Under the pieces are notes generated by a model. The model had not been told where the DNA came from and did not search any database. It saw only the letters and a program-made list of their open reading frames with translations. A stretch of DNA of 64,000 bases from Arthrobacter rhizosphaerae (lineage in GTDB: Bacteria; Actinomycetota; Actinomycetes; Actinomycetales; Micrococcaceae): positions 186,001-250,000 of the forward strand of contig NZ_JALLAN010000001.1 in NCBI RefSeq assembly GCF_023062595.1. Direction: 5' to 3'. Both the position numbers and the translations under genes were made by a program. Shown here piece after piece: positions 4,340 through 64,000 of this stretch. The stretch's first letter is position 1, and each line of letters starts with the position of its first letter.

Positions 4340-4675
4340 CTACTTGGACCGTTCGATGTTGTGTGCCTCGTCATAGGCCTTCTGGACCATCTTCGGAATG
4401 CGCCCGTAAGGCGGTACTTCGAAGTTGTTTTGGCGGCCCCATTCGCGGATCTGCTCCCGTTCCTCGGGCGTGGTCTCGGGCACGAGTCGTTTCTTCTCAC
4501 CCTTACCTGTGGCCTTTCTGCCCTTGGTGGCATAGCGCTCAAGTGTCTTCTCGAGTTCCTCCCTCTCTTCATCGGTCAGGTCTATCTCAAACCAGGTGTC
4601 CTTCAGTCCGAAGGTCACCGTGGCTGCGCCTGCCTTACCACTGATATCTGACTCAATTACTTTTCGCATCGCCAT
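4340..4675 (-). CDS. lsr2: Lsr2 family nucleoid-associated / xenogeneic silencing protein
   Basis: A 111-residue protein with both Lsr2 parts. The N-terminal oligomerisation region is FGLKDTWFEIDLTDEEREEL at ~22-42, and the C-terminal DNA-binding region is EREQIREWGRQNNFEVPPYGRIP at ~72-95. Chromosomal Lsr2 carries RGR in the AT-hook-like loop that enters the minor groove of AT-rich DNA. Here the first arginine is replaced, giving YGR, so affinity or sequence preference may differ. Lsr2 is the actinobacterial H-NS analogue, and plasmid-borne copies often act as stealth proteins that moderate expression of the incoming DNA. It is transcribed divergently from the RecJ-like gene across a 206-bp gap. 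Confidence 0.88.
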   Translation of the reverse strand: MAMRKVIESDISGKAGAATVTFGLKDTWFEIDLTDEEREELEKTLERYATKGRKATGKGEKKRLVPETTPEEREQIREWGRQNNFEVPPYGRIPKMVQKAYDEAHNIERSK

Positions 4676-9249: not shown

Positions 9250-9499
9250 TTCTCATTTCAGACCCATGCTCTCGACGTGTGCGCCGCTGGACCTCCGGGT
9301 CTCGCGCGCGACCCCTCCGAGACCTGTCCATGCATCAGTCGGGAACTCTATCGATGAATCAGTCGATACGTTGGAGACTCGTTGCGAAAGACCACCCGAA
9401 TGGAATAGAGTCGAGTTCACGTTCCTATTCGATTACGAGACCAATCGGCTTCCCACTCAACTGCCGGCAGGTGCTCGTGCCATCGAGAAAGACAGCAAC

Positions 9500-11344
9500 A
9501 TGACGACTCCTGACGACCCCACGCCCGTCTTCGAGGACGACTTCGACGTCCCATCAACCAACCCTGTGGCCGACGCCTTTACCAGCGTCATGGACCACTT
9601 CTCCGGCGAATCCGACATCGCCCCGCAGAACGAGATTGTCACCCGCGCCACTGCGGTGTACCTCGATCTGATCGACCCGTCCGACCCGCCGTCGCCACGT
9701 CTGATCGAGAAGCAGCTGCTCGCGATCGTCAACGGAGTCTGTAAGGCCGAGAACGCCAAGACCAAGCTCGCCACCGAGAAGCTGCTGCTGATGCGGACGC
9801 TGACGTACTGGCAGGTGGCGCAGATTCTGTTGAACCTGCACCACGTGATCCGCATCGCCCCAAGCGCCAAGGACACCGACCGGGAGTACGACCTGCTGGC
9901 GATGTACCAGGCGACCGGCCCAAGCCGCGGTACCTACACAACCAGTGAGGATGACATCCGGACCGCGGCTCGCAAATACAACACGCAGCTGACGCTGAAG
10001 GAGTTCGCCGAGGTCCTCGCTGTCCTCCGGGAGGACGGTCCGCGCCGACACCAATGCACCCATAGGGATCTCATTGCAGTGAACAATGGTGTGTTCCACT
10101 ACGGACAGACAGCCCGCGACATCTCTGTCGGCGGCAAGGATTTCCATCTCGAACCGAAGACCCTCGTACCGTTCGACCCGGCCCTGGTCTTCCTGGCCAA
10201 GTGCCACATTGACTACGTTGAGAACCCGGACAACCCGGTAATCGCGCATCCGACGGATGGTACAACCTGGGATATTGAGTCCTGGGTCAGCGAGCTCTCG
10301 GATGATGAGGGAATTCCCGAGCTGCTCTGGGAAATCATCGGCGCGATCATCCGCCCCCACGTGAGCTGGGGTAAGACCGCCTGGTTCTACTCCGAGCAGG
10401 GCAACAACGGCAAGGGAACGCTGTGCGCGCTCATGCGTAACTTGTGCGGGCCCCGTTCGCACACCTCGATCCCGCTGAGCGACTTCGGCAAAGACTTCGC
10501 ACTCGAGCCACTGGTGCGCGCCAACGCGATCATCGTCGACGAAAACGACGTGGGTACCTTCATCGACAAGGCGGCCAACCTGAAGGCGATCGTTACCAAT
10601 GACGTCATCCAGATCAACCGCAAATACAGAATGCCGATCGCCTACCAGTTCTTCGGCTTCATGGTCCAGTGCCTCAACGAGTTCCCACGGGTGAAGGACA
10701 AGTCAGACAGCTTCTATCGCAGGCAGCTGTTCGTGCCGTTCCTGAAGAGTTTCGAAGGTGTGGAGCGCAAGTACATCAAACAGGACTACCTCCAGCGCCG
10801 TGAAGTCCTGGAATATGCCCTCTGGTATGTGCTCAACCGCGCCGGAGCTTCTGACCCGGGTAACTACTACCAGCTCTCGGAGCCGGTGGCGACCAAAGAG
10901 GTCCTGGCCGAATACAAAGAATCCAACGATCCGGTCCGGGCCTTCTGGCAGGAGTTCCGTGAGCGGCTGGTGTGGGACCTCCTGCCCTTCACGTTCCTGT
11001 ACGACCTCTACAAGGCCTGGTTTGCCGATGTCTCGCCCTCGGGGTCGCCGGTGTCGAACAAGCAGTTCATCACCGACCTCGTGGCGATCGTGCGGCCTGA
11101 CCCGTTGTGGCACTGCCCGGACAAGAACAAGAAGATTCGTCCCGGTCAGATGATGACCCTCTCCGAGACCACCATCGCCGAATACGAGCTCACCAAGTGG
11201 CTGAACCCCAGTTACAAGGGCAGTGACCGCGACAAGCGTTCGAAGCCGCTCATCCAGGCCAACTACCGGGGCATCCTCCGTCACACCGGCCCCGTCGCGG
11301 GTGCTGATCCCGCAGGCACCGACCACCACGAAGAACAGGACTGA
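9500..11344 (+). CDS. SF3 (D5-like) replicative DNA helicase
   Basis: Start taken at ATG 9500 (MTTPDDPTP), giving 614 residues; the frame extends 78 codons upstream but through DNA that looks non-coding and carries the promoter. Superfamily 3 helicase motifs are clear: Walker A EQGNNGKGT at ~299-307, Walker B AIIVDEND at ~342-349, and motif C around QCLNEFPRV at ~389-397, followed by RRQLFVPF. The ~290 residues before it show no primase motifs; in P4-type proteins a primase sits there. The primase of this element seems to be encoded separately at 41.4 kb. These helicases are hexameric and open DNA at plasmid and phage origins, so this is the likely initiator helicase for the adjacent GTACCAC array. 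Confidence 0.85.
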   Translation: MTTPDDPTPVFEDDFDVPSTNPVADAFTSVMDHFSGESDIAPQNEIVTRATAVYLDLIDPSDPPSPRLIEKQLLAIVNGVCKAENAKTKLATEKLLLMRTLTYWQVAQILLNLHHVIRIAPSAKDTDREYDLLAMYQATGPSRGTYTTSEDDIRTAARKYNTQLTLKEFAEVLAVLREDGPRRHQCTHRDLIAVNNGVFHYGQTARDISVGGKDFHLEPKTLVPFDPALVFLAKCHIDYVENPDNPVIAHPTDGTTWDIESWVSELSDDEGIPELLWEIIGAIIRPHVSWGKTAWFYSEQGNNGKGTLCALMRNLCGPRSHTSIPLSDFGKDFALEPLVRANAIIVDENDVGTFIDKAANLKAIVTNDVIQINRKYRMPIAYQFFGFMVQCLNEFPRVKDKSDSFYRRQLFVPFLKSFEGVERKYIKQDYLQRREVLEYALWYVLNRAGASDPGNYYQLSEPVATKEVLAEYKESNDPVRAFWQEFRERLVWDLLPFTFLYDLYKAWFADVSPSGSPVSNKQFITDLVAIVRPDPLWHCPDKNKKIRPGQMMTLSETTIAEYELTKWLNPSYKGSDRDKRSKPLIQANYRGILRHTGPVAGADPAGTDHHEEQD

Positions 11345-16904: not shown

Positions 16905-18770
16905 ATGACCACAACCATCGCACCCCGACAGCAATCACCCGGGCCCGTCGTGCTCAAGCCTTATCAGCAGCAGATCCACGATTTTCTCGTCCGCAAGCCC
17001 TACGCCGGGGCCTGGCTCGGTGTTGGTGCAGGAAAGACGCTCAGCACGCTCAGTGTCCTGCAGACGGTCCGGCCGATAGGCCACATCCTCGTCGTCGCTC
17101 CTGTAGCCATCGCACGGTCGACGTGGCTCGACGAGATCGACAAGTGGGGATTTCCCATCCGAACGAAATCACTCATCGTCAACGAGAACGACAAGAAGCT
17201 GCCGAAGGCCAAGCGCCTCGAGCGCTACCGGGAGGTCTTCTCCGACCCGCCGACGATGTATTTCGTCAACCAGGAGCTACTCACCCAACCCTCCCAGGGC
17301 ATCAAGCTGATTGAGCCGGTGCCCGGGGCTGCGGCTTCACCTGCCCTGGGGCTGGTTTCTCCGCCGGCCCGTGACGTGTTCGGCTCCCTCATGGCCTCCG
17401 GACCCGTCTCCCAGGAAGAGCTTGTCGAGGGTTACCGTGCCGCGGTGATTTCGTCGGGTCAAGCCGCCCCCGCCAAATCAAGGATCGGCTCCTGGATTCA
17501 GGAACTGACCAAGGCTGGTCTCGTCACACGAGAGCAGCATGATTGCCGGTCATGTCAGGGCGAGGGCTGCAAAGAGTGCCGCTTCGGACTTGTCGACCAG
17601 ATGCCCATTCAGAACATCAACGGCCAGGACACCCTCATTTGGCCGTTCCAGACAGTGATCATCGACGAGTCCCAAGGCTTCAAATCGCATTCGTCCGAGC
17701 GATTCAAGGCCCTCAAGATCGTCCGCCCGGCGATTACGCGGCTCATCGAACTGACCGGCACTCCAAGCCCGAACGGACTGCACGATCTGTGGAGCCAGAT
17801 CTACCTGCTTGACCAGGGAGAAGCGCTCGGGAAGAACATCACCGAGTTCCGCAGCCGGTGGTTCATCCCGAAGATGGTGCCCGGCACCACCACACCATCG
17901 AAGTGGATCCCCAACCCAAACGCCGAGGCAGAGATCCACGGGTCCATCAAGCATCTGGTGATGAGCGCGCAGAACACCAACCTGAACCTGCCCGGGCTCA
18001 CAATCCAGAACGAGAATGTCACACTGCCCCCGGACCTCATGCAGGCCTACAAGGAGTTCAAGCGCGATCTCGTCCTCGACGTGGTCAAGTCCTATATTGA
18101 CGAGAACGGGAAGCTCACGCAGAGCATCGCGTCAATCGTGGCCGAGAACCAGGCAGTGCTCACCAGCAAGCTCATGCAGTTCGCCTCGGGCACGCTCTAC
18201 ACGGCCGACCCTGACGACCCGAGCACCAAGGGCCAGTACGAGGTCATTCACGACAAGAAGATCGAGATGGCCGAGTACCTGGTGCGCAACAGCGGCGGCG
18301 ACCCGGTCTTGATCGCCTACCACTTCCGATCGGACCTGGAGCAGCTGCTCCTGCGCTTCAAGAAGTCGGGCATCGATGCGCAGGCCTTCGACGGCTCGCG
18401 CGAAATGGTCCGCCGGTGGAACGACAAGCGGATCCCGGTGATGCTGCTGCACCCCGCGGCGGCCGGTCACGGCCTGAACCTTCAGGACGGCGGCTCGACG
18501 ATGATCTGGTACACGCTGCCGTTCTCACTTGAGCACTATCTTCAGACCAACGGCCGGCTCTACCGCACTGGCCAGACGAAGCCGGTGACCATCCATCGGT
18601 TGATCGCCAAAGGTACGCAGGACGAGCGCATGCCCGGCGTGCTTGCTGACAAGCAGCAGATCCAGGACGACCTCATCGAGGCCGTCTCCGGCGAGGACCG
18701 CATCCTTGCTGCCCTGGAGGAGGAGATTCAGGACGACTTGAACGACCTCTGGGTCTCCGAACGCGTCTGA
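16905..18770 (+). CDS. SNF2-family DNA helicase/translocase with zinc-binding insert
   Basis: A 621-residue SF2 protein starting at ATG 16905 with AGGCAGGTGTC upstream. Motifs: LGVGAGKTLS (Walker A, ~38-47), VIIDESQ (motif II, ~252-258), LTGTPSPNG (motif III, ~283-291), and GHGLNLQ ... NGRLYRTGQT ... VTIHRL (motifs V/VI and SNF2 end, ~523-565). An insert near 212-230 has the pattern CRSCQGEGCKECRFG, a probable zinc knuckle, preceded by a winged-helix-like stretch. SNF2/VRR-NUC neighbours in phages are thought to act on recombination or branched DNA. It probably assists replication fork or recombination processing. Confidence 0.85.
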   Translation: MTTTIAPRQQSPGPVVLKPYQQQIHDFLVRKPYAGAWLGVGAGKTLSTLSVLQTVRPIGHILVVAPVAIARSTWLDEIDKWGFPIRTKSLIVNENDKKLPKAKRLERYREVFSDPPTMYFVNQELLTQPSQGIKLIEPVPGAAASPALGLVSPPARDVFGSLMASGPVSQEELVEGYRAAVISSGQAAPAKSRIGSWIQELTKAGLVTREQHDCRSCQGEGCKECRFGLVDQMPIQNINGQDTLIWPFQTVIIDESQGFKSHSSERFKALKIVRPAITRLIELTGTPSPNGLHDLWSQIYLLDQGEALGKNITEFRSRWFIPKMVPGTTTPSKWIPNPNAEAEIHGSIKHLVMSAQNTNLNLPGLTIQNENVTLPPDLMQAYKEFKRDLVLDVVKSYIDENGKLTQSIASIVAENQAVLTSKLMQFASGTLYTADPDDPSTKGQYEVIHDKKIEMAEYLVRNSGGDPVLIAYHFRSDLEQLLLRFKKSGIDAQAFDGSREMVRRWNDKRIPVMLLHPAAAGHGLNLQDGGSTMIWYTLPFSLEHYLQTNGRLYRTGQTKPVTIHRLIAKGTQDERMPGVLADKQQIQDDLIEAVSGEDRILAALEEEIQDDLNDLWVSERV

Positions 18771-28246: not shown

Positions 28247-28687
28247 ATGCCTGACACCGAAACACCCCTCCAAATTGCGCTGAGTGCCGACGGAGCCAAG
28301 GACCTCTCCTGGCAAGCGAACGCGCTGTGCACACAGATCGACCCTGAGCTCTTCTTCCCGGAAAAAGGCCAGTCCCCACGCGACGCCAGGAAAATCTGCG
28401 CCAGCTGTGAAGTCCGCGAGCAGTGCCTCCAATGGGCTTTGGCGACCAACCAGCGCCACGGTGTCTGGGGCGGTCTGACCAGCCACGAACGGAGCATGCT
28501 TGCCCGGGCCGGCAACAAGACCAGGAGGCTCCGCACCGCGAAGAAAGCCATGCGCGAAGACACGATCGTCCAGCTGCACAAGGCCAGCGTTCCGGTCACC
28601 GAAATCGCCCAGCGCTTCGAAATTACCGAACGATCCGTGCATCGCATCGTCAAGAAGGCCAGGGAACTCCAGAAACAGTCTGCATAA
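28247..28687 (+). CDS. WhiB-family iron-sulfur regulator with C-terminal helix-turn-helix
   Basis: A 146-residue protein behind ACAGGAGGAGG. The four cluster cysteines are C28, C51, C54 and C60 (CASCEVREQC), followed by the signature GVWGGLTSHER at ~72-82. WhiB proteins bind a 4Fe-4S cluster and sigma-factor region 4 of the vegetative RNA polymerase, and they control gene expression in actinobacteria and their phages. Unlike short phage WhiBs, this one continues with a basic segment and EIAQRFEITERSVHRIVKKA, a convincing helix-turn-helix that could give its own DNA specificity. Relevant here because the element also encodes an RNA-polymerase-like subunit. Confidence 0.9.
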   Translation: MPDTETPLQIALSADGAKDLSWQANALCTQIDPELFFPEKGQSPRDARKICASCEVREQCLQWALATNQRHGVWGGLTSHERSMLARAGNKTRRLRTAKKAMREDTIVQLHKASVPVTEIAQRFEITERSVHRIVKKARELQKQSA

Positions 28688-40242: not shown

Positions 40243-40324
40243 AGCGGTAATAGCTAGTCGATAGACGAGTCAAACGGGCTTCCACAGACCATTGCACCAC
40301 CTCAACAGAAGGAACCTCATCACC

Positions 40325-45850: not shown

Positions 45851-47803
45851 ATGGGCCTCAGCAACTTCACGTCGGGCTCCGACGATGACAAGAACAACAG
45901 CGGCGGCACACCTCCGGGCTTCCCGCCAATGGGTGCTCACGCTTCCAGCAACAATCAGGACGACGACGTAGCCAAGGAGCTCCTCGTCGACTACAACGAA
46001 AAGTTCAAGAACGCCGACCCGACATTGTTCCGCGATGTGCTCATCGAGCAGGTCCTCTCAGTGCTGATCAGCAAGAACAAGCCGAATGCACTGCTCAAAG
46101 GCTCCGCCGGCGTCGGCAAAACCAGGATCGTCGAGGACATCGCCCGCCGGATCGAGCTGGGCGATACCCTCATCCCCGACCAGCTCAAGGGCCACACTGT
46201 CTACGAGCTGCCGATCACGAACCTGATCGCCGGATCCGGCATCCGCGGCCAGCTCGAGGAGAAGGTCCAGGCCATCGTCGCCTTCGTCTCAGACCCCAAG
46301 AACAAGGTCATCCTGTTCATCGACGAGATCCACCAGATCACCGGCGGATCCAGCACGGGCAGCAGCCATGAGGCGCGGCTGATCTCGCAGATCCTCAAGC
46401 CTGCGCTGGCCCGCGGCGACATGCATGTCATCGGCGCAACCACCTCGAACGAGTCCCGGGCCTTCGATGATGACCCCGCTTTCGCACGACGCTTCACCCA
46501 GCTCATCGTCGATGAGCTGACCGTCGAACAGACGCTCGCTGTCCTGGGGACGGTTCGCCCAGGCCTGGTGGCCCACTACAACCACAAGATCATGGTCGCC
46601 GATGACGTCCTGACCGAAACGGTCAGGATCGCCGAAGAGAACTCCCGTGCCGGACAGCACCGCCCCGACAACGCCATCACGCTGCTTGACCGCGCGATGG
46701 CAGACCGGGTCCTGGAACAGAAGAAGCTCATCGTCCAGGCCGAGGCCGCCGGCGACACCGCCCTCGTGGCAACTCTCCGGTCGATCCCGCGGGTGCCGCT
46801 CACGGCCAAGCGTGTCCTGGACGTGGCCAAGCGGCTGATGACCGGCAACGCGCAGCGCCCGGACTTCGACGTTGCGACACTGCGCGGCACCCTGATGAAC
46901 CGCCTGCAGGGACAGGCTGACGTACTCGACAAACTCGTGGACCGTCTGGCCCGCGAAGAACTGGACCTGTTCCCGACCAAGACCCCTACGACGTGGATGC
47001 TCGCCGGAGCATCGGGGGTGGGAAAGACCGAGACGGCAAAGATCATCGCAGAGCAGATGACCGGCACCGAGCCGATCATCCTCAACATGACCGAGTTCCA
47101 CTCCGAGTGGTCGACCTCCAAGATCATCGGGTCCCCTCCGGGGTATGTCGGATCCGACTCCAACCAGGAGCTGCCTTTCGACACTCTCGAATCCAACCCG
47201 CACCGGGTGATCCTGCTTGACGAGTTCGAGAAGGCTGACAAGGCCGTGCAGCGGCTGTTCCTCTCCGCATTTGACGAGGGGTACATCCGCAACGCCCGCG
47301 GTAAGCTGCTGGACTTTTCCAAGGCCCTGGTCATCTGCACGACCAATGCCGCACGGGAGGCTCTCAGCGGCAGTCACATCGGATTCGGGTCTGCCCCGAC
47401 TGCGGTCTCTCACAAGAGCCTTACGAAGGCCTTGAGTGAGCACTTCGACGCGGAACTGCTGGGACGGTTCTCCCTGGTAGTGGGATTCAATCCCATTGAT
47501 GAGGAGACCTACCGCAACATCATGGCTGCTGACTACGTCCGCCAGCGTGAACGGATCCTGGACGTCAAGCCCCGGCTGGCGCAGGCTCTGCCCACGTCGA
47601 TGCCTGACGACGAGGTACACGCGGTCGCCGAGCGAACTTTCGTCGACTCCCAGGGTGCACGACCGGCAGGAAAAGCAGTCCGGGTCTGGATCGAGGATCG
47701 ACTTCTCGCCGCCCAGACCCGGACTGCTTCCTCGGCTGCCGCATTGGTTGCCGCCCCGGTGATCGCTCCCTCCGAGGAACCGGAAACGTCGGCCATCGAC
47801 TGA
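45851..47803 (+). CDS. ClpA/ClpB-like double AAA+ ATPase
   Basis: A 650-residue Hsp100-type protein behind CAAAGGAGGG. First AAA+ module: GSAGVGKTR at ~84-92, GSGIRGQLEEKV at ~128-139, LFIDEIHQITG at ~155-165, IGATTSNE at ~194-201. Second module: GASGVGKTETAK at ~385-396, GSPPGYVGSD at ~426-435, LLDEFEKADK at ~454-463. The usual ~150-residue Clp N-domain is missing and replaced by a short disordered start. There is no ClpP-binding IGF-type loop that I can identify, so it may work as a disaggregase-like remodeller. It forms a cassette with MoxR and VWA genes. Confidence 0.88.
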   Translation: MGLSNFTSGSDDDKNNSGGTPPGFPPMGAHASSNNQDDDVAKELLVDYNEKFKNADPTLFRDVLIEQVLSVLISKNKPNALLKGSAGVGKTRIVEDIARRIELGDTLIPDQLKGHTVYELPITNLIAGSGIRGQLEEKVQAIVAFVSDPKNKVILFIDEIHQITGGSSTGSSHEARLISQILKPALARGDMHVIGATTSNESRAFDDDPAFARRFTQLIVDELTVEQTLAVLGTVRPGLVAHYNHKIMVADDVLTETVRIAEENSRAGQHRPDNAITLLDRAMADRVLEQKKLIVQAEAAGDTALVATLRSIPRVPLTAKRVLDVAKRLMTGNAQRPDFDVATLRGTLMNRLQGQADVLDKLVDRLAREELDLFPTKTPTTWMLAGASGVGKTETAKIIAEQMTGTEPIILNMTEFHSEWSTSKIIGSPPGYVGSDSNQELPFDTLESNPHRVILLDEFEKADKAVQRLFLSAFDEGYIRNARGKLLDFSKALVICTTNAAREALSGSHIGFGSAPTAVSHKSLTKALSEHFDAELLGRFSLVVGFNPIDEETYRNIMAADYVRQRERILDVKPRLAQALPTSMPDDEVHAVAERTFVDSQGARPAGKAVRVWIEDRLLAAQTRTASSAAALVAAPVIAPSEEPETSAID

Positions 47804-48335: not shown

Positions 48336-48430
48336 CGACTCATCACACGACTCTGTCACAATGGTGATACGACTCCCCAATCAAATATCTCTCGACTCAC
48401 CTATTGATCCGTCCGACGAAAGACGACACC
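48336..48430 (+). promoter_or_regulatory. Promoter region of the UvrD-like helicase gene
   Basis: After the tandem terminators a new promoter is needed. CGACTCATC (48336-48344) and further CGACTC copies (48348, 48370, 48395) recur at roughly 20-bp steps, and the tract is locally A/T-rich (48376-48415). They may be operator half-sites. Confidence 0.35.
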
Positions 48431-51223
48431 ATGCCTATCCTGCTCGATGACATCGACCTCTCCGCAGCTGCCGTCGCTGCCCAAAAGGCTGCCGACCCGA
48501 AGTTCTTCTCCTCGAAGCTGACCGGATCCGGCAAGAAGACCGGGCTGCTCAATGAGGCCCTGCGTCCGATCAACACTGCAACCAACACCGCCTACGCCAT
48601 CGCGCGGGACATTGAGGTCAAGCAGAGCTCGACCCAGCACGAGATCACGACTTCCACGGTGCCGCTGGCCCCGATCACGCGCCGCGCGCTCCTTTCGGGC
48701 GGCTCCTTTACCCTGCCGGTGCCACACGTTGACGACTGCTTCTCCGTCGATGTTTCTGCCAGCAAGATCCAGGACTGGGACGTCGTCTTCGACATGATCC
48801 CGCAGGGCCTGACCCTGTACGAAGACAAGTCCGGTGACAAGATGGCCCGCGACCTCGTCATCCAGTACCGCATGGAGCTTTACTTCTTCAAGCAGGGCCT
48901 GGTGGAGCCCGAGCGCGCGACCTCGGTTGCCCACTCGAACGGATACGGCAACCACGATGCTGCCGTGCTCCTGCAGTGGGACACCAGCCCTTCCGAGAAC
49001 GCCCGTGGGTTCATCGAAGACGTCCTCGCATCGGCAGGGCTGACCGCCTCAAACCTCGACGAACTCGCCGAGTGGATGGACGAGTACCCGATCCACGAGC
49101 GCATCACCCGCCTCGCCCAGGTCTGGGACTCCGAAGCGATTGCCGACGAGGTCTGCCAGTACGTGCTGGACATGCCGGCCAGCCCCAGTGAAGAACAGCT
49201 GAACATGCTCGCCGTGCAGCTTCGCTACCTGGAGAACTACAACGTTCCGCTGGAAGCCTACCGCCGGATCCACCAGCAGCTGGACGCCACCTTCTCCGAG
49301 CAAATCGCGGCGAAGCTGTCCAAGCAGAACCTGAGCCTGCTGATGAACCACACGCTCGACCACCTTGACCGGATGAAGAGCCAGCTGGTGACCCCGACAC
49401 AGCCGGTAACGCCTCCGGTCCTGCCGGCGCACCTGTCCAAGCAGCAGCTTGACGCACTCACCACGCATGAGCCCCTGGTGATGACCCAGGCCGGCGCGGG
49501 CACCGGCAAGTCCACGGTGATCCTCGAGCGCATCAAGTACCTCGAAGCCTGCGGCGTCCCCGCCTCGGACATCACGGTGCTGAGCTTCACGAACGCCGCG
49601 GCCGACAACATCACTGAGAAGAACCCGAACGTCGGCTCGATGACGATCGCCAAGAAGATCATCGACATCTACTCGATGAACCACCCGACCCACAAGGTCT
49701 CGGCGATCGACACGATCATCAACTCGATCGACATCTTCTACCCGAACAACCAGTTCGCAGCGACGTTCCGTCATCGCCTGCTGGAGGTCGACCAGAACAA
49801 GACCGGCGCGTTCACGGCACTGAACACCTACGTCGAGAACCACTTTGACGAGGTGATCGCGCTGCTGGACCAGATCCAGCAGACGTCCCTGGAACTGCAG
49901 ATCATCATCTGCTACCAGAAGATCGACGACATGGTCGAGCCTGCCCACGTGCAGAGCAAGTACCTGATCATCGACGAAGTCCAGGACAACTCGGTGTTCG
50001 AGTTCATCTACGTGCTGAAGTACATCACCAAGCACGCACAGTCGCTCTTCATCGTCGGCGATGCCAGCCAGACGCTGTATGAGTTCCGCTCGGCCAACCC
50101 GAGGGCGCTCAACACGCTGGAGGGCTCGGGAGTCTTCGCGACCTTCCGGCTCACGACCAACTACCGGAGCAACCAGGAGATCCTTGACTTCGCCAACGTC
50201 GTGCTCGGTGGACTGGAGACCAACCAGTTCGCCAACATCCAGCTGCAGGCGAACTCGCTCGCGGTCCCGACAGCCGATTCCTTCCAAGCGAAGGTCAAGC
50301 TCGACTACCGCGAGTTGCCTCGGATCGGCACCTTCGTTACTCAGGATCTGCAGCCAATCGTGCGCAACACGGTGATCCCGGACTACGTTCAGGGTTGCCT
50401 CGACCGCGGTGAGCAGGTGGCTTTCCTCGCTTACTCACGACGGGAGGTCGCGCTGATCCAGGAAGTGCTCGAGAAGGCATACCCGAACAAGCACGTCGCA
50501 TCGCTCGTCAGCGACCGGGTCTACGCCACGGACATCTTCTCGAAGTACATCAAGTTCTACTGGAACGACGTCCTGCAGGTCCAGCCTGCCAACGCCTCGT
50601 TCGTGGTCTCCCAGGGGATCAAGGACAACATGGGCAAGCTGACGAAGAACGCTGGCAGCCCTGCCGTGGAGAAGGCCATTCTGCTCACCATCTCGCAGTG
50701 GTGGGTAGAGAACAGCGCCACGATCAACGGCTGGGTCGCCCTGTGCAACCAGGGCACGCTGCCGCACAAGGCGTTCTTCGACCGCCTGCGAGACAACCTC
50801 CTGGGATTCGAGATCGCTCGCAACCAGCAAAAGCTGAACGTGAACAAGCAGAAAAACCAGGAGCGCAAGCGGAAGAACCTCGAGTCCAAAGCCGACCTCG
50901 TCGTCTCAACGATCCACGGTGCCAAGGGTCTCGAGTTCGACAACGTCGTCGTCCTCTACAAGGAGGACACGCAGATGAGCCAGGACACCAAGCGGATGTT
51001 CTACGTCGCCTTTACCCGCGCCATGAAGAGCCAGTACGTGCTCTCCTACGGCACGGTAAAGAACCCGCCGATTCAGAGCAGCTACGAGCAGATCGTCAAC
51101 GCTCTGACCGAGCGCGACGAGAAGAACGCCTTGCGTGCCCAGGGTATCGACCCGGACCTCATGGTCGACGACGATGCCGCTGGCTCCGTCGGTGATCAGC
51201 TGCCGGTCCCCGAGGCCGTCTGA
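48431..51223 (+). CDS. UvrD/PcrA-type SF1 helicase with large N-terminal extension
   Basis: Start at ATG 48431; 930 residues. SF1 motifs: QAGAGTGKST (Walker A, ~353-362), TVLSFTNAAADNI (Ia, ~386-398), YLIIDEVQDN (II, ~511-520), LFIVGDASQTLYEFR (III), TTNYRS (IV, ~574), STIHGAKGLEFD (V, ~826-837) and FYVAFTRAM (VI, ~857-865). About 340 residues precede the helicase core and match nothing I know; they may bring a partner or DNA-end recognition. It acts probably as a 3'-5' helicase in repair or rolling-circle-like steps. Its own promoter lies behind two terminators, so it is an independent unit. Confidence 0.88.
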   Translation: MPILLDDIDLSAAAVAAQKAADPKFFSSKLTGSGKKTGLLNEALRPINTATNTAYAIARDIEVKQSSTQHEITTSTVPLAPITRRALLSGGSFTLPVPHVDDCFSVDVSASKIQDWDVVFDMIPQGLTLYEDKSGDKMARDLVIQYRMELYFFKQGLVEPERATSVAHSNGYGNHDAAVLLQWDTSPSENARGFIEDVLASAGLTASNLDELAEWMDEYPIHERITRLAQVWDSEAIADEVCQYVLDMPASPSEEQLNMLAVQLRYLENYNVPLEAYRRIHQQLDATFSEQIAAKLSKQNLSLLMNHTLDHLDRMKSQLVTPTQPVTPPVLPAHLSKQQLDALTTHEPLVMTQAGAGTGKSTVILERIKYLEACGVPASDITVLSFTNAAADNITEKNPNVGSMTIAKKIIDIYSMNHPTHKVSAIDTIINSIDIFYPNNQFAATFRHRLLEVDQNKTGAFTALNTYVENHFDEVIALLDQIQQTSLELQIIICYQKIDDMVEPAHVQSKYLIIDEVQDNSVFEFIYVLKYITKHAQSLFIVGDASQTLYEFRSANPRALNTLEGSGVFATFRLTTNYRSNQEILDFANVVLGGLETNQFANIQLQANSLAVPTADSFQAKVKLDYRELPRIGTFVTQDLQPIVRNTVIPDYVQGCLDRGEQVAFLAYSRREVALIQEVLEKAYPNKHVASLVSDRVYATDIFSKYIKFYWNDVLQVQPANASFVVSQGIKDNMGKLTKNAGSPAVEKAILLTISQWWVENSATINGWVALCNQGTLPHKAFFDRLRDNLLGFEIARNQQKLNVNKQKNQERKRKNLESKADLVVSTIHGAKGLEFDNVVVLYKEDTQMSQDTKRMFYVAFTRAMKSQYVLSYGTVKNPPIQSSYEQIVNALTERDEKNALRAQGIDPDLMVDDDAAGSVGDQLPVPEAV

Positions 51224-57637: not shown

Positions 57638-58651
57638 TTACTCCCGCTCGAAGTCTGCCGGGAAGCTGACCTCATCCGGCTGCAAATCCGGCCGGACCCG
57701 CACGAGGCGAACCGAGTGCCGAAAGGCCTGACCCGACCAGGCGACGTCGGCTGAGACCTCCGCAACCAGAGGTTCCACCAAAGTCAGGTGTATCTTGCCG
57801 CTTTCCTTGGTGAATCTATCGAGCGACCTCTCGCTGATTTCTTCCGGCCATGGATGCTTCCCCTGTGGCGGCCGAAGGTAGGGGGCCAAATCCCGTCCGG
57901 CACGAGCCGACAGGGGACCGGATCGGCCGACAATCCGCAATCGCCCATGCAACGGCAAACCCACGACCACGCCTCGCGGCTGGGTTGCCGGACCTATGAC
58001 CGCAGCAACAACAACATCTACAACTTTTCTGCTTTTGACCTTTAGCCAGATGCGCCGTGGTTCATAAGTTTGGGCCTCACCCTTGACCAGGATTCCTTCA
58101 ACACCAGTGGCCGGCATTTCTTGGAGCCAGGTCTCCGCCACCGCCCGGTCCTTGGTCACCGGCGACAGATTCAATGGCGGTACCCATTCACGCGCCAGCT
58201 CTTCCAGCAAAGTGCGTCGGTCCCGGAACGGCAATCCGCGGATATCATTCCCGGCCACTGCCAGAGCATCAAAAGCTATCAGCGAGGCCGGACTCTGATG
58301 CACAAACGCCGGAAGTGCCGCTTTGGCCGTCACCAGGCGAAGCTGTAGTGCATCGAAATCCAACCGGTCCCCGGACCACACCACCAGCTCACCATCAATG
58401 ACACAGCCCGGTGGAATCTGCTTACCCGCAGCAGCCAAAACGTCCGGAAAGTATCGGCTTAGATCCTTGCCTTGCCTCGAGTACAACCACACGTCACTCA
58501 AGCCGACAAAACATGCTGCGCGGAAGCCATCAAATTTCATCTCGAAAACGGAACCGCCGGTCAGCACATCCCCATGCGGAATCGACTCCACGGCCTTCGC
58601 CAGAGCGAGGTCTACAGGAGGGTGCAGCGCAGCAGGCACACCTTCAAACAT
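57638..58651 (-). CDS. ATP-dependent DNA ligase (LigC/LigD-type catalytic core)
   Basis: Start taken at ATG 58651 (MFEGVPAAL); the frame extends to 58711 without a ribosome site at either. Motif I is FEMKFDGFR (adenylated Lys, near 36), then VIDGELVVW (III, near 84), LIAFDALAV (IIIa), GVEGILVKG (IV, near 186) and WLKVKSR (V, near 204). An OB-fold half follows (RGVVVGLPLHGRLRIVGRSG ... FRHSVRLVRVRPD). At ~337 residues it is a compact two-domain ligase as in actinobacterial LigC. It seals nicks for replication or repair; the PNKP-type phosphatase could prepare its ends. Confidence 0.9.
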   Translation of the reverse strand: MFEGVPAALHPPVDLALAKAVESIPHGDVLTGGSVFEMKFDGFRAACFVGLSDVWLYSRQGKDLSRYFPDVLAAAGKQIPPGCVIDGELVVWSGDRLDFDALQLRLVTAKAALPAFVHQSPASLIAFDALAVAGNDIRGLPFRDRRTLLEELAREWVPPLNLSPVTKDRAVAETWLQEMPATGVEGILVKGEAQTYEPRRIWLKVKSRKVVDVVVAAVIGPATQPRGVVVGLPLHGRLRIVGRSGPLSARAGRDLAPYLRPPQGKHPWPEEISERSLDRFTKESGKIHLTLVEPLVAEVSADVAWSGQAFRHSVRLVRVRPDLQPDEVSFPADFERE

Positions 58652-58820
58652 TCTGGGCACAGCGTAAACCCATCCCGCCAAGGCCGGAAGCGGCGTACCG
58701 CAGCAAAACAATGGCCCGTGACTGTAATCCGGGATAGCAAGCTACAGAACGTCACAGCGAAGCTGTGACCGGGTCTTGCTCCGACCAGGGAAACCAACCA
58801 CGTCCGAAATGAGAGCTGTC

Positions 58821-59306: not shown

Positions 59307-59690
59307 CTAAGACGCAGCCTCGAGCAGGCGCTCTTCCGCCTCGTCGAACTCGTCCATCACGCCGTAGATCTCCGGATCGGTCAGGGTGGTGTTGTCATCT
59401 GAATCCAATCGGCGGTTGATACTGCGCGACGCAGAAAACTTCAGCACCGAATAGTCATCGACGTCCTTCTTGCCAAAGCGGACCTTGTGACCCTTGTGCG
59501 TTTGTCGGCAGAAGCGACCAAAACCGGTGAGCATCACAATATCTCCACGACGAACCGAGTCAGTCAGCTCTCCGATCAGGGATTCGTACACCTCACTCAC
59601 GATCCGGATTGGCTGTCCGCTGCGGCTGGCCACCTTCGAAATGAATTCACGCTTGCTGATGCGCGGATGCCCCGTCGTCTCCATGCCCAC
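59307..59690 (-). CDS. HU/IHF-family DNA-binding protein
   Basis: A 127-residue protein. The HU fold is clear: ISKREFISKVASRSG at ~11-25, VYESLIGELTDSVRRGDIVMLTGFGRF at ~34-60, then the beta-arm region QTHKGHKVRFGKK and SRSINRRL. A 30-residue acidic tail (DPEIYGVMDEFDEAEERLLEAAS) follows, which is unusual; most HU proteins stop earlier or have basic tails. HU bends DNA and helps origin opening and nucleoid structure. It is the last gene of the minus-strand run that starts with the RNA-polymerase-like gene, though a 105-bp gap with its own promoter-like palindromes precedes it. Confidence 0.88.
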   Translation of the reverse strand: MGMETTGHPRISKREFISKVASRSGQPIRIVSEVYESLIGELTDSVRRGDIVMLTGFGRFCRQTHKGHKVRFGKKDVDDYSVLKFSASRSINRRLDSDDNTTLTDPEIYGVMDEFDEAEERLLEAAS

Positions 59691-59747: not shown

Positions 59748-59788
59748 ACATATGCCTATCGGAAAGCTATCGATAGGTCTATCACGAC
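59748..59788 (-). promoter_or_regulatory. CTATCG repeats upstream of the HU-like gene
   Basis: Includes CCTATCG (59754-59760) and the palindrome CTATCGATAG (59767-59776), plus GTCTATC on either side. It occupies the short gap between the HU-like gene and the 121-residue gene, a likely operator/promoter region. Confidence 0.45.
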
Positions 59789-59795
59789 CAGTTGG

Positions 59796-60161
59796 TTAGA
59801 GCTCAAAGTCTGGATCGATAGATTCCCTGGCGTCCTTGTACTCGTAGTCGACCGATTCGATAATGGACCTCGTCTTCGGGTCGTGGCGCGTATTCACGAT
59901 CTTGTCGTGCGATTCGTCGAACCGCTGCTGGTCCGCGATCCTGTGTGCCGCGTTGAGCTTTGCGTTGATGTTCTTATCGCCGAACTCCATCATTGAGCCG
60001 ACCGAGGACTTAGCGCCCTGCTTGGTCGCGTTGACGGTCGACTTGTTCTGAACACGCTGCTGCTCCCAGCGGCTCCGGTCCTCTGGCGTGATGTATCCAA
60101 ACATCTGCGCGAGTCGCGAGCCGTACCGCTCCTGTTGCCCCACCTGCTGATCGTCGCTCAT
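59796..60161 (-). CDS. Unknown 121-residue protein in the RNA-polymerase-like operon
   Basis: Preceded by AGGAAGGAATCACC, so well translated. Helical and charged: a GYITPEDRSRWEQQRVQN segment, then MEFGDKNINAKLNAAHRIADQQRFDESHD and an acidic C-terminus (YEYKDARESIDPDFEL). No known domain. It follows the 606-residue unknown by 30 bp on the same strand and is likely co-transcribed with the polymerase-like gene. It might be an assembly, sigma-like or accessory factor; none of these can be shown from sequence. Confidence 0.6.
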   Translation of the reverse strand: MSDDQQVGQQERYGSRLAQMFGYITPEDRSRWEQQRVQNKSTVNATKQGAKSSVGSMMEFGDKNINAKLNAAHRIADQQRFDESHDKIVNTRHDPKTRSIIESVDYEYKDARESIDPDFEL

Positions 60162-60191: not shown

Positions 60192-62012
60192 TTACGCCGG
60201 CTGGTACTCGTCTGCCCCGCGCTGCGCCCCTGGCCCGTCACCTTCATGCTGGGCCGAAGGACCGGGACCCTGGCGGAAGGGCTTCGGCCGCATCCGCTGT
60301 TCGGCGAAGAACGCCGCCGGATGGTCAACCGCGTCGCGCATCCGGCCCTGCCAGTCCTCGCCGAGAGCCAGCCTCAATTCGTGTTCGAACTCTGGGTCCT
60401 CCTTGTTGATCTGCTCGACTGCGTCGACATACGCATTTGAATAGACCCGCTGCTGCTCCTCGTCCGGGATTCCATCGATGTCCATGCTCGCGAGCATGAT
60501 TTCGGACTGATCGAAACGCTGCTGCAGGAGAGGGTCCAGTCCGCTGGTATCAAGGCCCTGTTTCTTTGCGGCGAAGCCGACCATGTAACCCATCATGCTT
60601 CCCGCCAGCGCCTGGCGGCCGCCCTTGTTGACACCGTCAAGCATTGCGGCCTTCATGGTCTCTGCCAGCTGGACCTGATGCTCATCCGCCGTCATCGGCT
60701 GGCGCAGGGTAAACATGCCGTCTGCCGGGATCCTGCGGCCGAGGTGATCGTCAAACTCGCCGGTCCACACCTCGCGCACGCGATCCGTCCCCGCCATGCG
60801 CTCTTCGTGCGGGGGAGCCTTGACGATCCTGCCGTGGGACACGCCGTTGAACATCAGACGCAGCTCCGGTTCTGATTCCATACGCTCGCCGATGATCATC
60901 CGTGCACGCTTGACGACCTCAGCACGGTCCAATCCGTCCTCGTCCATCTGGCCGCGCAGCCGCTTACGCATCGCCTTGTAGCTGGCATGAATCTGCTTGC
61001 TGTCCTGTTCGGGATCACGCATCTTCCAAAACGCGTTCTCCATCAATGCAACCTCTGTCATTGCCGCAGAGTCAGGTGTGAACGTCTCGCGGCTGCCCCG
61101 GTCACGATGCTCCATCTTCTCCATGCGGCGCTGCCACTTCTTCGACAGGTAGTCCGTGCGGTCGTGCTTCTTGCCCTCCCGGCGTGCCAGGAAGTCCTGG
61201 TCACCGGCCAGATCCGGATTCCTGTTCAACTTCGACTCGGTGCCCAGGTCGATGACCCGGTTGTACTGCTCGGCCGAGTTCTCAGCTCCAGCCCTGACGG
61301 TCCTGGTTCGGGCGTCCATGCGCTCGTGGATCTTGTCCTTGAACGGCTGCAGGTACGACTCCATCTCGTTCTTGAAGTCCGGGGAAAGCATCCGCATTGC
61401 CATCATCATGCCTGCGGCTTGGATGATCGAGTTCGGATTCACGCCGCGCGTGAGCGGCTTGAGGCAGCTCTGCATCATCATCTGCATGTAGACCGCGTGC
61501 ATGGCGTTGAACTCGTGTTCGCGCTCTTGGTCATTGAACCCGGGCACGAGCAGCTTGGAATCCCGGAGGGTCTCCATGTACTTCTCACCAGCCAGCTTGG
61601 TTTCCGCGCGAAGCTTCAGCAGTCGTTCACGCTCGTCGAGGCCGTCGCCATCGGAGGCAGCGCGCTCCTCGTCAACTCTGCGCTGCTGCTCCCGGCCATC
61701 GGGGTTTGCCCGGGTCCTCGCTCCGAAGAACTCGCGGGCCCGGTCCCGCAAACGCTCGCGCCGGGCGTTGGCGGAACTCCGCGACTCCGTCCCGTCAACA
61801 ATCTCGGCATCGACGATGTCCTCGTCCGGCCAATCTGCCGGTGCGGCCTCCTGCGACGGCCGCACCGGCTCTGCGGGCAGAGGGCCGCCACGACGGTCCT
61901 CCACACGGTCCGCGGTGCCTGAATAGACGTTGCCGGAACTATCCACCGGCAGAGCCTTCCTGGCCCGCCTGTTACCGCTTGGGCCGTTTTCAAGTTCCTT
62001 GTCCTGTGCCAT
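60192..62012 (-). CDS. Unknown 606-residue partner of the RNA-polymerase-like gene
   Basis: Start at ATG 62012 (MAQDKELEN), one base after the stop of the polymerase-like gene and with GGGGAA upstream, so the two are co-transcribed and probably translationally coupled. The first ~120 residues are disordered and charged. The rest is mostly helical and methionine-rich (MHAVYMQMMMQSCLKPLTRG; AAGMMMAMRMLSPDFKNEMESY; ALAGSMMGYMVGF), with a short beta segment near 420-450 (VREVWTGEFDDHLGRR). It matches no sigma, NusG, beta or zinc-ribbon pattern I know. Because of the gene order it is the first candidate for a dedicated transcription factor or structural partner. Confidence 0.7.
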   Translation of the reverse strand: MAQDKELENGPSGNRRARKALPVDSSGNVYSGTADRVEDRRGGPLPAEPVRPSQEAAPADWPDEDIVDAEIVDGTESRSSANARRERLRDRAREFFGARTRANPDGREQQRRVDEERAASDGDGLDERERLLKLRAETKLAGEKYMETLRDSKLLVPGFNDQEREHEFNAMHAVYMQMMMQSCLKPLTRGVNPNSIIQAAGMMMAMRMLSPDFKNEMESYLQPFKDKIHERMDARTRTVRAGAENSAEQYNRVIDLGTESKLNRNPDLAGDQDFLARREGKKHDRTDYLSKKWQRRMEKMEHRDRGSRETFTPDSAAMTEVALMENAFWKMRDPEQDSKQIHASYKAMRKRLRGQMDEDGLDRAEVVKRARMIIGERMESEPELRLMFNGVSHGRIVKAPPHEERMAGTDRVREVWTGEFDDHLGRRIPADGMFTLRQPMTADEHQVQLAETMKAAMLDGVNKGGRQALAGSMMGYMVGFAAKKQGLDTSGLDPLLQQRFDQSEIMLASMDIDGIPDEEQQRVYSNAYVDAVEQINKEDPEFEHELRLALGEDWQGRMRDAVDHPAAFFAEQRMRPKPFRQGPGPSAQHEGDGPGAQRGADEYQPA

Positions 62013-62013
62013 C

Positions 62014-64000
62014 TCAGTTCCCCATTCCGTAGTCGTCGTCACTCTTCTCGGGTTCGGCCTCAAAGTTCGGCGTCCAGACCGGCCGACGTGCTCCGACGCC
62101 GACGGCGTGCACCGAGCGCCGTCCCGCGCCACGTGCCCTGGCAGCGCCGTCTACATCCGGGGCGATTACGTCGCGCTTGACCACCGCGGCGTCCACTGCG
62201 ATCTCAGCACTCTCCATACCGTTCAGGCCGTCCAGCCCGAGGATCTCGAACGCGTCCAGCTGCTGGGCCGCCGCCGAGCGCACTCGTCGGGTCCCTGCTG
62301 AGGCGAACTGTTCGTTCTTCGCTCCGTCGAAAATGCCTTCGCGATCCTTCGCTGCCTGCAACAGCGCCGCAAAGTCGCCACCGTAAGCCATGCGGTCCAT
62401 CACGGTGCCGGCCAGAGACGGGTCCTCCTCCAGATTGCGCACAAGCCCCGTCTTCGGGTCTTCCAAGGCACGTGCGACGCGCGCCACGTGGTCAGGATTG
62501 ACCGTGACGTTGAACCCGTCCTTGGCTTCATAGAACTCCGTGAACTGGGCCTCCCACTCCTCGGCCGTTGCCTGGACAGCCTCACCGTCGGAGAACTCGG
62601 GCCGCCACTGGCCGGGACCGACATGCTCGAGCTTGCGGCCCCTCCAGAGATCACGCCCCGGGCCCTGAAGCATCTCGTACTTGTGCCGGGCTTCTGCTGC
62701 ATCGTGTTTGGCCTGCAGGATCGACTGGGTCACCGGGTAGGTAACCTCCAGCACCGCTTTGAGGTCCGCGCCTCGCAGGGCACGCACGGCCCTCTGCGAG
62801 AAAGAGCCACCGAGTCCCGTTCCGTGGGCCTTGATTGCCGTGGCAAACATACTCGCCTCCTGGTCCTCCTGGGTGATGCCGGGCCTGCCCTGGTCGTCGC
62901 CGAGGTTGCGGGCATAATCAGCCAGCTTCTTCTCGCTGCCCTTCGCGCCGGTCTCAACGCAGACCTGGCGCACGCTCTGCAGGTGCGCCTCACGGTCGGA
63001 GAACGTCAACGCCGCACCGAATTCACCGCGCTGGGCAGAGCGATAGATACCGCTGAGCTCGTCGGTGAGTGTCTCCCGACCGGTGCCAACCTCGTAGGAG
63101 TCGTCGACGAAACGCAGCCGGTTCGCCTCCGCCAAGGAGCTGTCCAGATCCTCCACCAGGTTCGGGTTCTTCGACAGTGCGACCTGCGTGTCCAGAGAAA
63201 CCTGCATCGCCAAGGGGTGTGAGCCGTCAGGCTTCACCACTCCGGTGTCCAGCAGGTTCGAGGGCACCGAAAGCTTCTCAAGAGCCTCAGCCTTCGCTGC
63301 CTCGCTGTGCAGCTTCACCACTGCGACCGCATCGCCGTCGAAGTCGCCGTCGAAGCACTGATCCATGACCGGGTTGATCGCCGCGCCCGTGAGCCGGTCG
63401 TCGATGGCTACCCGCATGTAGCGCACGCCGGCGTCGCGCAGGACCGGATCGCGCCAAACCAGAGCGTGGTCGCCCTCGGTCAGACCCAGCTGCCCGGCCT
63501 TGACCGAGCTCAGGGCGATCTGGTCGATGTCGAGCCGCGGGTCCGCGGTCCAGACCATTGTCGCCGAGTCGGACAGGCGCGAGGACATCAAACCTGTCTT
63601 GAAGATGTTGTTCTTTCCGGTGAGTACCCGGGTCTGCACATCAGTAGTGATCGCTTCGAAGGAACGCTGGGCCCGGGACACGGACTCACTCATACCCCGC
63701 CGCACTTCCGCGCGCTTCTCCGAGGACAAGCCCTGACCGTCCAGCTGCTCGGCCATAAACCGGTAGCGGCAGGCCTCGACAAAAACGTCCTGGTAGTTGC
63801 GGGTGTAATCGTGTGTGACCGACGTGCCGTCGTCGAATTCCTGCCCGCTGCGCAGGTGCGAGGAAAGCACAGGCAGCTTCCAGGAGGACGCACTGACGGT
63901 CTCGGTCTGCTCGCCGGTCGGATACGCCAGCGGAAACGGGATCTCCATGTCGCCGCCGCGGTCACCGATCAGGTCGCCAAAGGACTTACGCATCGCTGTT
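62014..64000 (-). CDS. Divergent RNA polymerase beta-prime-like catalytic subunit, N-terminus beyond the window
   Basis: The frame is open to the window edge; counted from the first visible Met (63993) it has 659 residues. LPVLSSHLRSGQEFDDG at ~40-56 parallels the beta-prime LPVLPPDLRP...DGG segment. TGKNNIFKTGLMSSRL ... DPRLDIDQ at ~125-158 parallels the GK.GR.R.NLLG.R..YS...DP.L.L.Q segment. RDPVLRDAGV then CFDGDFDGDAVAV at ~213-225 is the double-psi beta-barrel catalytic loop, with D217, D219 and D221 matching the metal-binding aspartates of NADFDGD. The rest is far shorter than bacterial beta-prime and lacks visible zinc ribbons. The DGDFDGD form is like that of YonO, the single-chain RNA polymerase of phage SPbeta. 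A beta-like half could be upstream, outside the window. Confidence 0.85.
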   Translation of the reverse strand, partial: TAMRKSFGDLIGDRGGDMEIPFPLAYPTGEQTETVSASSWKLPVLSSHLRSGQEFDDGTSVTHDYTRNYQDVFVEACRYRFMAEQLDGQGLSSEKRAEVRRGMSESVSRAQRSFEAITTDVQTRVLTGKNNIFKTGLMSSRLSDSATMVWTADPRLDIDQIALSSVKAGQLGLTEGDHALVWRDPVLRDAGVRYMRVAIDDRLTGAAINPVMDQCFDGDFDGDAVAVVKLHSEAAKAEALEKLSVPSNLLDTGVVKPDGSHPLAMQVSLDTQVALSKNPNLVEDLDSSLAEANRLRFVDDSYEVGTGRETLTDELSGIYRSAQRGEFGAALTFSDREAHLQSVRQVCVETGAKGSEKKLADYARNLGDDQGRPGITQEDQEASMFATAIKAHGTGLGGSFSQRAVRALRGADLKAVLEVTYPVTQSILQAKHDAAEARHKYEMLQGPGRDLWRGRKLEHVGPGQWRPEFSDGEAVQATAEEWEAQFTEFYEAKDGFNVTVNPDHVARVARALEDPKTGLVRNLEEDPSLAGTVMDRMAYGGDFAALLQAAKDREGIFDGAKNEQFASAGTRRVRSAAAQQLDAFEILGLDGLNGMESAEIAVDAAVVKRDVIAPDVDGAARARGAGRRSVHAVGVGARRPVWTPNFEAEPEKSDDDYGMGN

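Follow-up and report, generated by a model that had tools for sequence, protein, structure and literature searches.

A 64,000-nucleotide stretch of the Arthrobacter rhizosphaerae genome (positions 186,001 to 250,000 of contig NZ_JALLAN010000001.1, here C1; the whole stretch is called the window below) is predicted to be part of a mobile element, and at its end it carries part of a gene for a single-chain RNA polymerase with both catalytic barrels. In all of the 30 actinobacterial loci compared, this gene is fixed beside the coupling-protein gene of a conjugation module. The encoded chain retains a complete set of catalytic aspartates, and the flap is, by sequence comparison, absent from its beta barrel. 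It is quite possible, and this is the reading tentatively favored here, that the chain synthesizes RNA from the DNA of the element at about the time of transfer, without sigma or the host polymerase.

The polymerase chain and its active site

The open frame at window positions 62014–63999 (minus strand) holds 661 residues and runs off the edge of the window. The following features were located in it:

62014–64000, minus strand: part of the polymerase gene that encodes the C-terminal third of the two-barrel chain, with 3566 bp more outside the window
63850–63876, minus strand: LPVLSSHLR, aligned with VPVIPPELR of host beta-prime
63520–63618, minus strand: block from GK..IF..GLMSSRL to DPRLDIDQ, leading into the beta-prime-like double-psi beta barrel (DPBB-A)
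63331–63345, minus strand: DFDGD catalytic Asp triad, residues 1408–1412, within CFDGDFDGDAV (Asp invariant, 75/75)
62767–62865, minus strand: predicted bridge helix, K1579-x3-T1583-G1584
62701–62736, minus strand: predicted N-terminal helix of the trigger loop, TQSILQAKHD (T1613 75/75, Q1614 74/75, H1621 71/75)
62017–62037, minus strand: DDYGMGN, a short C-terminal tail that is conserved and follows a variable stretch

The original prediction, made from the letters of the window, described a chain of about 660 residues. This holds for the part inside the window, but the complete gene (C1:248014–253566) encodes 1850 residues (P0001), and the beta-like barrel that was to be looked for past position 64000, on this chain or in the next gene, lies on the same chain. 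AGGAGG stands shortly 5' of the ATG of the gene, and the ATG of the following gene (606 aa) is found 1 base past its stop codon; thus, the two are likely to be translated together. Host rpoB and rpoC each form a long open frame elsewhere, on contig C34. The ratio of nonsynonymous to synonymous substitution rates (dN/dS) of the polymerase gene against three relatives is 0.10, 0.17 and 0.23, and the gene is under purifying selection. Based on the intact long frame, the separate host rpoBC and the low dN/dS, it is not a decayed host gene, and the degraded host-type rpoC whose presence upstream would have spoken against the original prediction was sought there and not found.

The three landmarks on which that prediction rested (LPVLSSHLR, GK..IF..GLMSSRL/DPRLDIDQ and CFDGDFDGDAV) are present and in order, and they exceed what chance would give: Pfam family PF00623 is above its cut-off of 25.3 on the window piece (27.5 bits). 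On the whole chain, the same family reaches 24.9 bits (residues 1362–1430), just below the cut-off, while the beta barrel domain PF00562 scores 31.2 bits at residues 976–1056 (cut-off 23.4). A PHROGs search with the window piece gave no significant match (best E-value, 0.069), and an NCBIfam search with the whole chain gave no model at its cut-off (best E-value, 1.7e-4). Comparison of the family profile with the host subunits by hhalign resulted in E-values of 1.1e-12 for beta-prime (209 columns) and 2.7e-11 for beta (132 columns). The chain is unlike host beta-prime overall, as had been claimed, but not in its three landmarks, which align with that subunit. In 75 aligned sequences (alignment A2), chosen among the relatives found, residues D984, K985, N992, K993, R1039, R1372, D1408, D1410, D1412, K1579 and T1613 are invariant, including the two basic residues of DPBB-B, K985 and K993 (75/75). 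One frame of the copy at locus L040 holds 36 stops, and this copy was excluded from alignments A2 and A3 for its stop codons. A second broken copy, in genome G522 (L068–L070), is represented by three matches over two frames; both may reflect either decay or sequencing errors.

In the predicted structure, the DxDxD triad (D1408/D1410/D1412) falls within a stretch that aligns with the largest subunits of RNA polymerases, and the fold predicted around it is beta-prime-like. A triad placed outside such a barrel, which would have spoken against the original prediction, was looked for and not seen. An element-borne catalytic chain with a complete Asp triad, as originally proposed, is supported. The K...TG and TQ......H signatures are read as a predicted bridge helix and trigger loop. 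The former resembles K789..S793-G794, which we take to be the corresponding part of the E. coli bridge helix, and the naming of the latter rests on its likeness to what is presumably the trigger-loop sequence TQLTMRTFH; host beta-prime carries GTQLT at position 993.

From an 'NFED'-like segment, matched by eye to host beta, to the GDK motif there are 30 residues, versus 152 in host beta, and it is here that the flap (SBHM) is missing. In cellular enzymes, the flap binds sigma (PMC7824862). In addition, the clamp domain family PF04997 had no match in the polymerase chain and was found at host rpoC only. With the flap missing and no PF04997 match, both usual contacts to sigma are unseen, and sigma would probably not be used in the usual way. 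A Foldseek search of the N-terminal 660 residues, performed with a model of the relative at locus L011 (predicted local distance difference test, pLDDT, 88.3; predicted template modelling score, pTM, 0.69), gave no match to a solved structure at E ≤ 0.001.

The hhalign targets were single sequences, and the ranking that follows is like for like, but weak for distant kin, so that distant kinship may be missed. YonO of SPbeta shares with the present chain the presence of both barrels in one chain and a place on a mobile element. It is a processive DNA-transcribing polymerase for phage late genes, described as having no detectable trigger loop (PMC5467207), whereas a TQ......KHD-type, trigger-loop-like signature is conserved in the present family. 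The suggestion that YonO-type enzymes are the closest known idea was not supported, since YonO gave an E-value of 0.24 with the alignment not at the active site, versus 2.9e-9 for gp96 of phage P23-45 and the far lower values for the host subunits. The virion polymerase of crAss-like phage phi14:2, taken as such by its length (2180 residues) and its record as a structural protein, likewise gave no significant match as a candidate nearest relative (E-value, 0.55). The match to P23-45 gp96 (probability, 96) lies around DPBB-A, and both are single chains. The best solved-sequence match, PDB 8h2n (E-value, 6e-4), has matched letters that are those of gp96, and the entry names a tape measure protein. 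According to its description, gp96 is clampless and fused to the tail tape measure protein (PMC10770324). The present chain differs in that it has a ~640-residue N-terminal part without a known fold match and no tail-protein family was found in it (Pfam and NCBIfam, E ≤ 0.1), the listed matches being RNA polymerase families only. Similarity to P23-45 gp64 was weak (E-value, 0.01). Compared with cellular RNA polymerase, the hhalign matches and the bridge-helix and trigger-loop signatures are shared, while the beta and beta-prime barrels stand on one chain that has neither the flap nor a PF04997 match.

Polymerases of the NCgl1702 type, from mobile elements, also have no flap in the beta barrel (PMC7824862) and, judging by this description, probably belong to the same broad family; the passages on NCgl1702 in that paper do not connect it with conjugation genes. 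Likely mobile elements of Firmicutes and Cyanobacteria have also been mentioned as carrying polymerase genes (PMC7598289), and single-subunit two-barrel polymerases have been listed (PMC7281927); the kind is therefore known. A literature search, which was not exhaustive, found no paper in which a polymerase of this kind is connected with a relaxase or coupling protein, and no priority is claimed. Nothing on the present gene was found in PMC13118837.

The conjugation module

The genes upstream of the polymerase gene, on the same strand, encode a MobL relaxase (PF18555, 334.6 bits), several small proteins, an AAA+ protein of the ClpA-like kind, a protein without a Pfam match that looks coiled-coil-like by eye, and a coupling protein resembling VirD4 (PF02534, 74.9 bits; NCBIfam CD1115-type model, 149.2 bits, below its cut-off of 250). 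In these families the module resembles known MobL and VirD4-like conjugation modules, and it additionally carries an RNA polymerase gene immediately behind that for the coupling protein. Downstream, the window holds:

60192–62012, minus strand: 606-aa gene, no Pfam match; in 30/30 loci the polymerase gene has a relative of it downstream
59796–60161, minus strand: 121-aa gene of the same module, with a C-terminal tail resembling that of the polymerase (29/30 loci)
59770–59776, minus strand: CTATCGA element preceding the gene for HU
59307–59690, minus strand: gene for an HU-like DNA-binding protein (PF00216, 31.7 bits; 27/30 loci)

A genome scan revealed 41 loci, 30 of which (L011–L040) match P0001 along most or all of its length, whereas 11 weak or partial matches (L041–L051) were excluded from the neighbor count. 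The polymerases of the 30 loci form 10 clusters at 75% identity. Relatives of the coupling protein, the coiled-coil-like, the AAA+ and the 606-residue proteins were each found at 30/30 loci, and the stop codon of the coupling-protein gene is located 122–264 bp ahead of the start of the polymerase match in every case. Among plasmids (13 records, 5 of which were examined), the complete order from MobL to HU is kept on a Streptomyces plasmid, and Gordonia and Rhodococcus plasmids keep the AAA+, coiled-coil-like, coupling-protein and polymerase genes. A staphylococcal plasmid has the polymerase gene separated by two genes from that of the coupling protein (PF12696, 59.5 bits). In four loci (L015, L016, L032 and L039), the coupling-protein gene is interrupted after about query residue 1023 by a stop-free in-frame insert of ~1 kb, the ends of which look intein-like by eye (...TPTGWTTMGEIEVGDELLTPFG... 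to ...DERHLYLTD).

The extreme C-terminal ends of the polymerases, which follow a variable stretch, are conserved (DYGMGY, DYEMEL, GFELEM and EIEMEV), and those of the 121-residue neighbor (DPDFEL, DEGFEF) and of a 100–103-residue protein in Rhodococcus and Gordonia (NGYEL, NGYEF) are similar. Among the proteins listed for the staphylococcal plasmid, the polymerase is the only one with such an ending. Among proteins P0001–P0186 (P0094 was excluded from the tail listing), the tail pattern occurs in 28 of 54 representatives at 70% identity, versus a mean of 3.6 and a largest value of 11 in 1000 shuffles. The tail is possibly a transfer or docking signal.

The sequences preceding five module genes (up to 13 loci) and the polymerase gene (30 loci) were read by eye, without a motif-finding program. 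The conserved TAnnnT and CTATCGA/GATAG elements observed there resemble promoters of the host accompanied by operators. CTATCGA precedes not only the HU gene but also those for the polymerase, the coiled-coil-like protein and the AAA+ protein. Sites were recorded at window positions 59770–59776 and 40258–40264 and at C1:253636, 253658, 260006, 260029, 261904 and 269311. The element occurs 11 times in the window (4.39 expected; 1/100 shuffles reaches 11) and 5 times in L002 (1.41 expected; 3/200 shuffles reach 5), and it may serve as the operator of a shared regulator.

Proposed role and alternatives

An enzyme for transfer is the simplest reading of the complete active site, the lack of a flap and the fixed place beside the coupling protein. 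RNA polymerisation is suggested by the invariant residues and by relatives tested in print, sigma independence by the loss of the flap and of a PF04997 match, and action in transfer by gene linkage. By analogy with phage virion polymerases, such as that of P23-45, which its authors proposed to transcribe phage DNA during entry (PMC10770324), the template would most likely be either the strand that is transferred or the duplex newly formed in the recipient, and the products would be early transcripts, possibly primers. The N-terminal ~640 residues, which are confidently predicted, may anchor the chain on DNA or on the transfer machinery. First reading and second-strand synthesis of transferred plasmid DNA are usually credited to host enzymes; a polymerase acting within the transfer module would make this step self-supplied.

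In a bolder form of this reading, which is rather unlikely, the chain would itself pass through the type IV channel along with the transferred strand and, in the recipient, transcribe the DNA on arrival before the host polymerase takes over. The conserved C-terminal tail common to it and the small neighbor protein would be the passport, and such an injected enzyme, if real, would be the plasmid counterpart of phage virion polymerases.

Several observations weigh against an enzyme acting in transfer. A shared operon may mean only shared expression, and the likeness to the P23-45 enzyme spans ~100 columns around one barrel only. At 50% identity, the tail pattern is found in 7 of 26 representatives versus a shuffle mean of 1.6, with the largest of 1000 shuffles (7) equal to the observed value; moreover, the pattern was set after viewing the data, and the tail is a lead only. 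No relatives of MobL, the 121-residue protein or HU were detected by tblastn on the Gordonia and Rhodococcus plasmids, and the 606-residue protein has a relative there at 23% identity only. On one Lactococcus plasmid, which has an annotated VirB11-like gene and a CHAP/lysozyme gene, the two neighbors tested have no coupling-protein domain. The region upstream of the polymerase itself is host-promoter-like (a loose TAnnnT pattern in 26/30 loci, counted without a shuffle control), and no private or single-strand promoter was found in the upstream regions in a limited search by eye.

The main rival is a private polymerase on the donor side, which would read double-stranded element DNA from its own promoters and serve transfer or late operons, as YonO does for the late genes of SPbeta. 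This is a reasonable, though doubtful, alternative. The original prediction had suggested private transcription of part of the element, which may still hold, but the position of the gene within the conjugation module favors transfer. The structural facts fit it equally well, YonO provides a precedent in print as a processive late-gene polymerase (PMC5467207), and Lsr2 in the window and the repeated CTATCGA elements fit a separate regulon. However, the module upstream regions carry host-like TAnnnT, with no separate promoter class seen in the same limited reading by eye. This suggests that the host polymerase can express the module, which makes a donor-side enzyme less likely.

That the chain is instead a primer-making enzyme, supplying short RNAs for complementary-strand or vegetative replication, is improbable. 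The plasmid primases Sog and TraC enter recipients, the sigma-binding flap is absent, and the window encodes a D5-like helicase (DUF5906, Pox_D5; 9266–11344) whose primase partner was not identified. On the other hand, 1850 residues with bridge-helix and trigger-loop signatures look built for long transcripts, and we know of no primase family of such a kind. An RNA-templated or regulatory polymerase, similar to the enzymes of eukaryotic RNA interference that belong to this superfamily, is very improbable: they too have two barrels on a single chain (PMC10770324), but the present profile matches DNA-dependent host subunits at 1e-11 to 1e-12 and the trigger-loop-like TQ......H is kept. Finally, descent from host rpoBC as a structural protein or an inactive remnant is scarcely credible, for although broken copies are known (G522, split over two frames, and L040, with its 36 stops), the intact 1850-residue frame, the dN/dS of 0.10–0.23, the invariant catalytic residues and the host genes elsewhere speak against it.

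Relatives and other genes of the element

In total, 676 proteins match the catalytic part, and among the best 120 of these, the source-named ones are nearly always hypothetical proteins. With the Rhodococcus relative as query, 600 proteins were matched, which were left out of the further comparisons, and with the staphylococcal one 69, the weak end of which includes a few ordinary polymerase subunits. The closest named relative is from Pseudarthrobacter sp. GA104 (99% identical). At E ≤ 1e-10, a relative was found in 1 of 394 genomes of the class (the query genome itself) and in 10 of 198 genomes of the genus (query included), a patchy presence that is expected for a mobile element. The polymerase is kept across many actinobacterial genera and is near transfer genes in Staphylococcus as well, and a family with nearly host-like barrels and no flap should be useful for learning what starting without sigma needs. 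Two contigs of metagenome-assembled genomes of Thermotogaceae (L041 and L042) encode distant matches of ~490–500 residues across both barrels (27–30% identical).

No match was obtained by tblastn of the window piece against 50,697 phage records at E ≤ 0.01. In viral contigs, one stretch fitted a pattern, and it encoded no relative of the polymerase. A fold search returned 46 predicted viral proteins at E ≤ 0.001, mostly viral polymerase subunits where named and including one phage protein named minor tail protein; a link to phages is therefore still possible despite the negative tblastn result. Among 50 of the 995 VIA fold rows, the entries are eukaryotic polymerases by title, bar one influenza polymerase complex, which excludes nothing.

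The other genes recognized in the window are:

4511–4657 (C1:190511), minus strand: Lsr2 gene, 45.7 bits
4882–6807: RecJ-like DHH gene
9266–11344: D5-like helicase gene (DUF5906/Pox_D5)
16905–18770: SNF2-like gene
28310–28501 (C1:214310), plus strand: WhiB gene, 91.4 bits
30420–31706: MgsA-like gene
48404–51223: UvrD-like gene

Both WhiB and Lsr2, which had been attributed to the element, are thus encoded in the window. The RecJ-like, D5-like, SNF2-like, MgsA-like and UvrD-like genes make up a replication and repair set, and a frame at 57638–58711 (minus strand) resembles an ATP-dependent DNA ligase by eye (KFDGFR). Besides the ClpA-like protein of the transfer module, a second two-domain AAA+ protein (PF07724, PF00004) is encoded at 45851–47803. 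Genes for Phage_lysozyme2/CHAP wall hydrolases are located near the polymerase in the present element (L003:5211–7727, minus strand), as well as on the Staphylococcus (L008:26448–28487) and Lactococcus (L009:27399–29006) plasmids. A tyrosine-integrase-like gene near the module (L003:10543–11826, minus strand; PF00589, 30.1 bits) suggests that the element is integrated.
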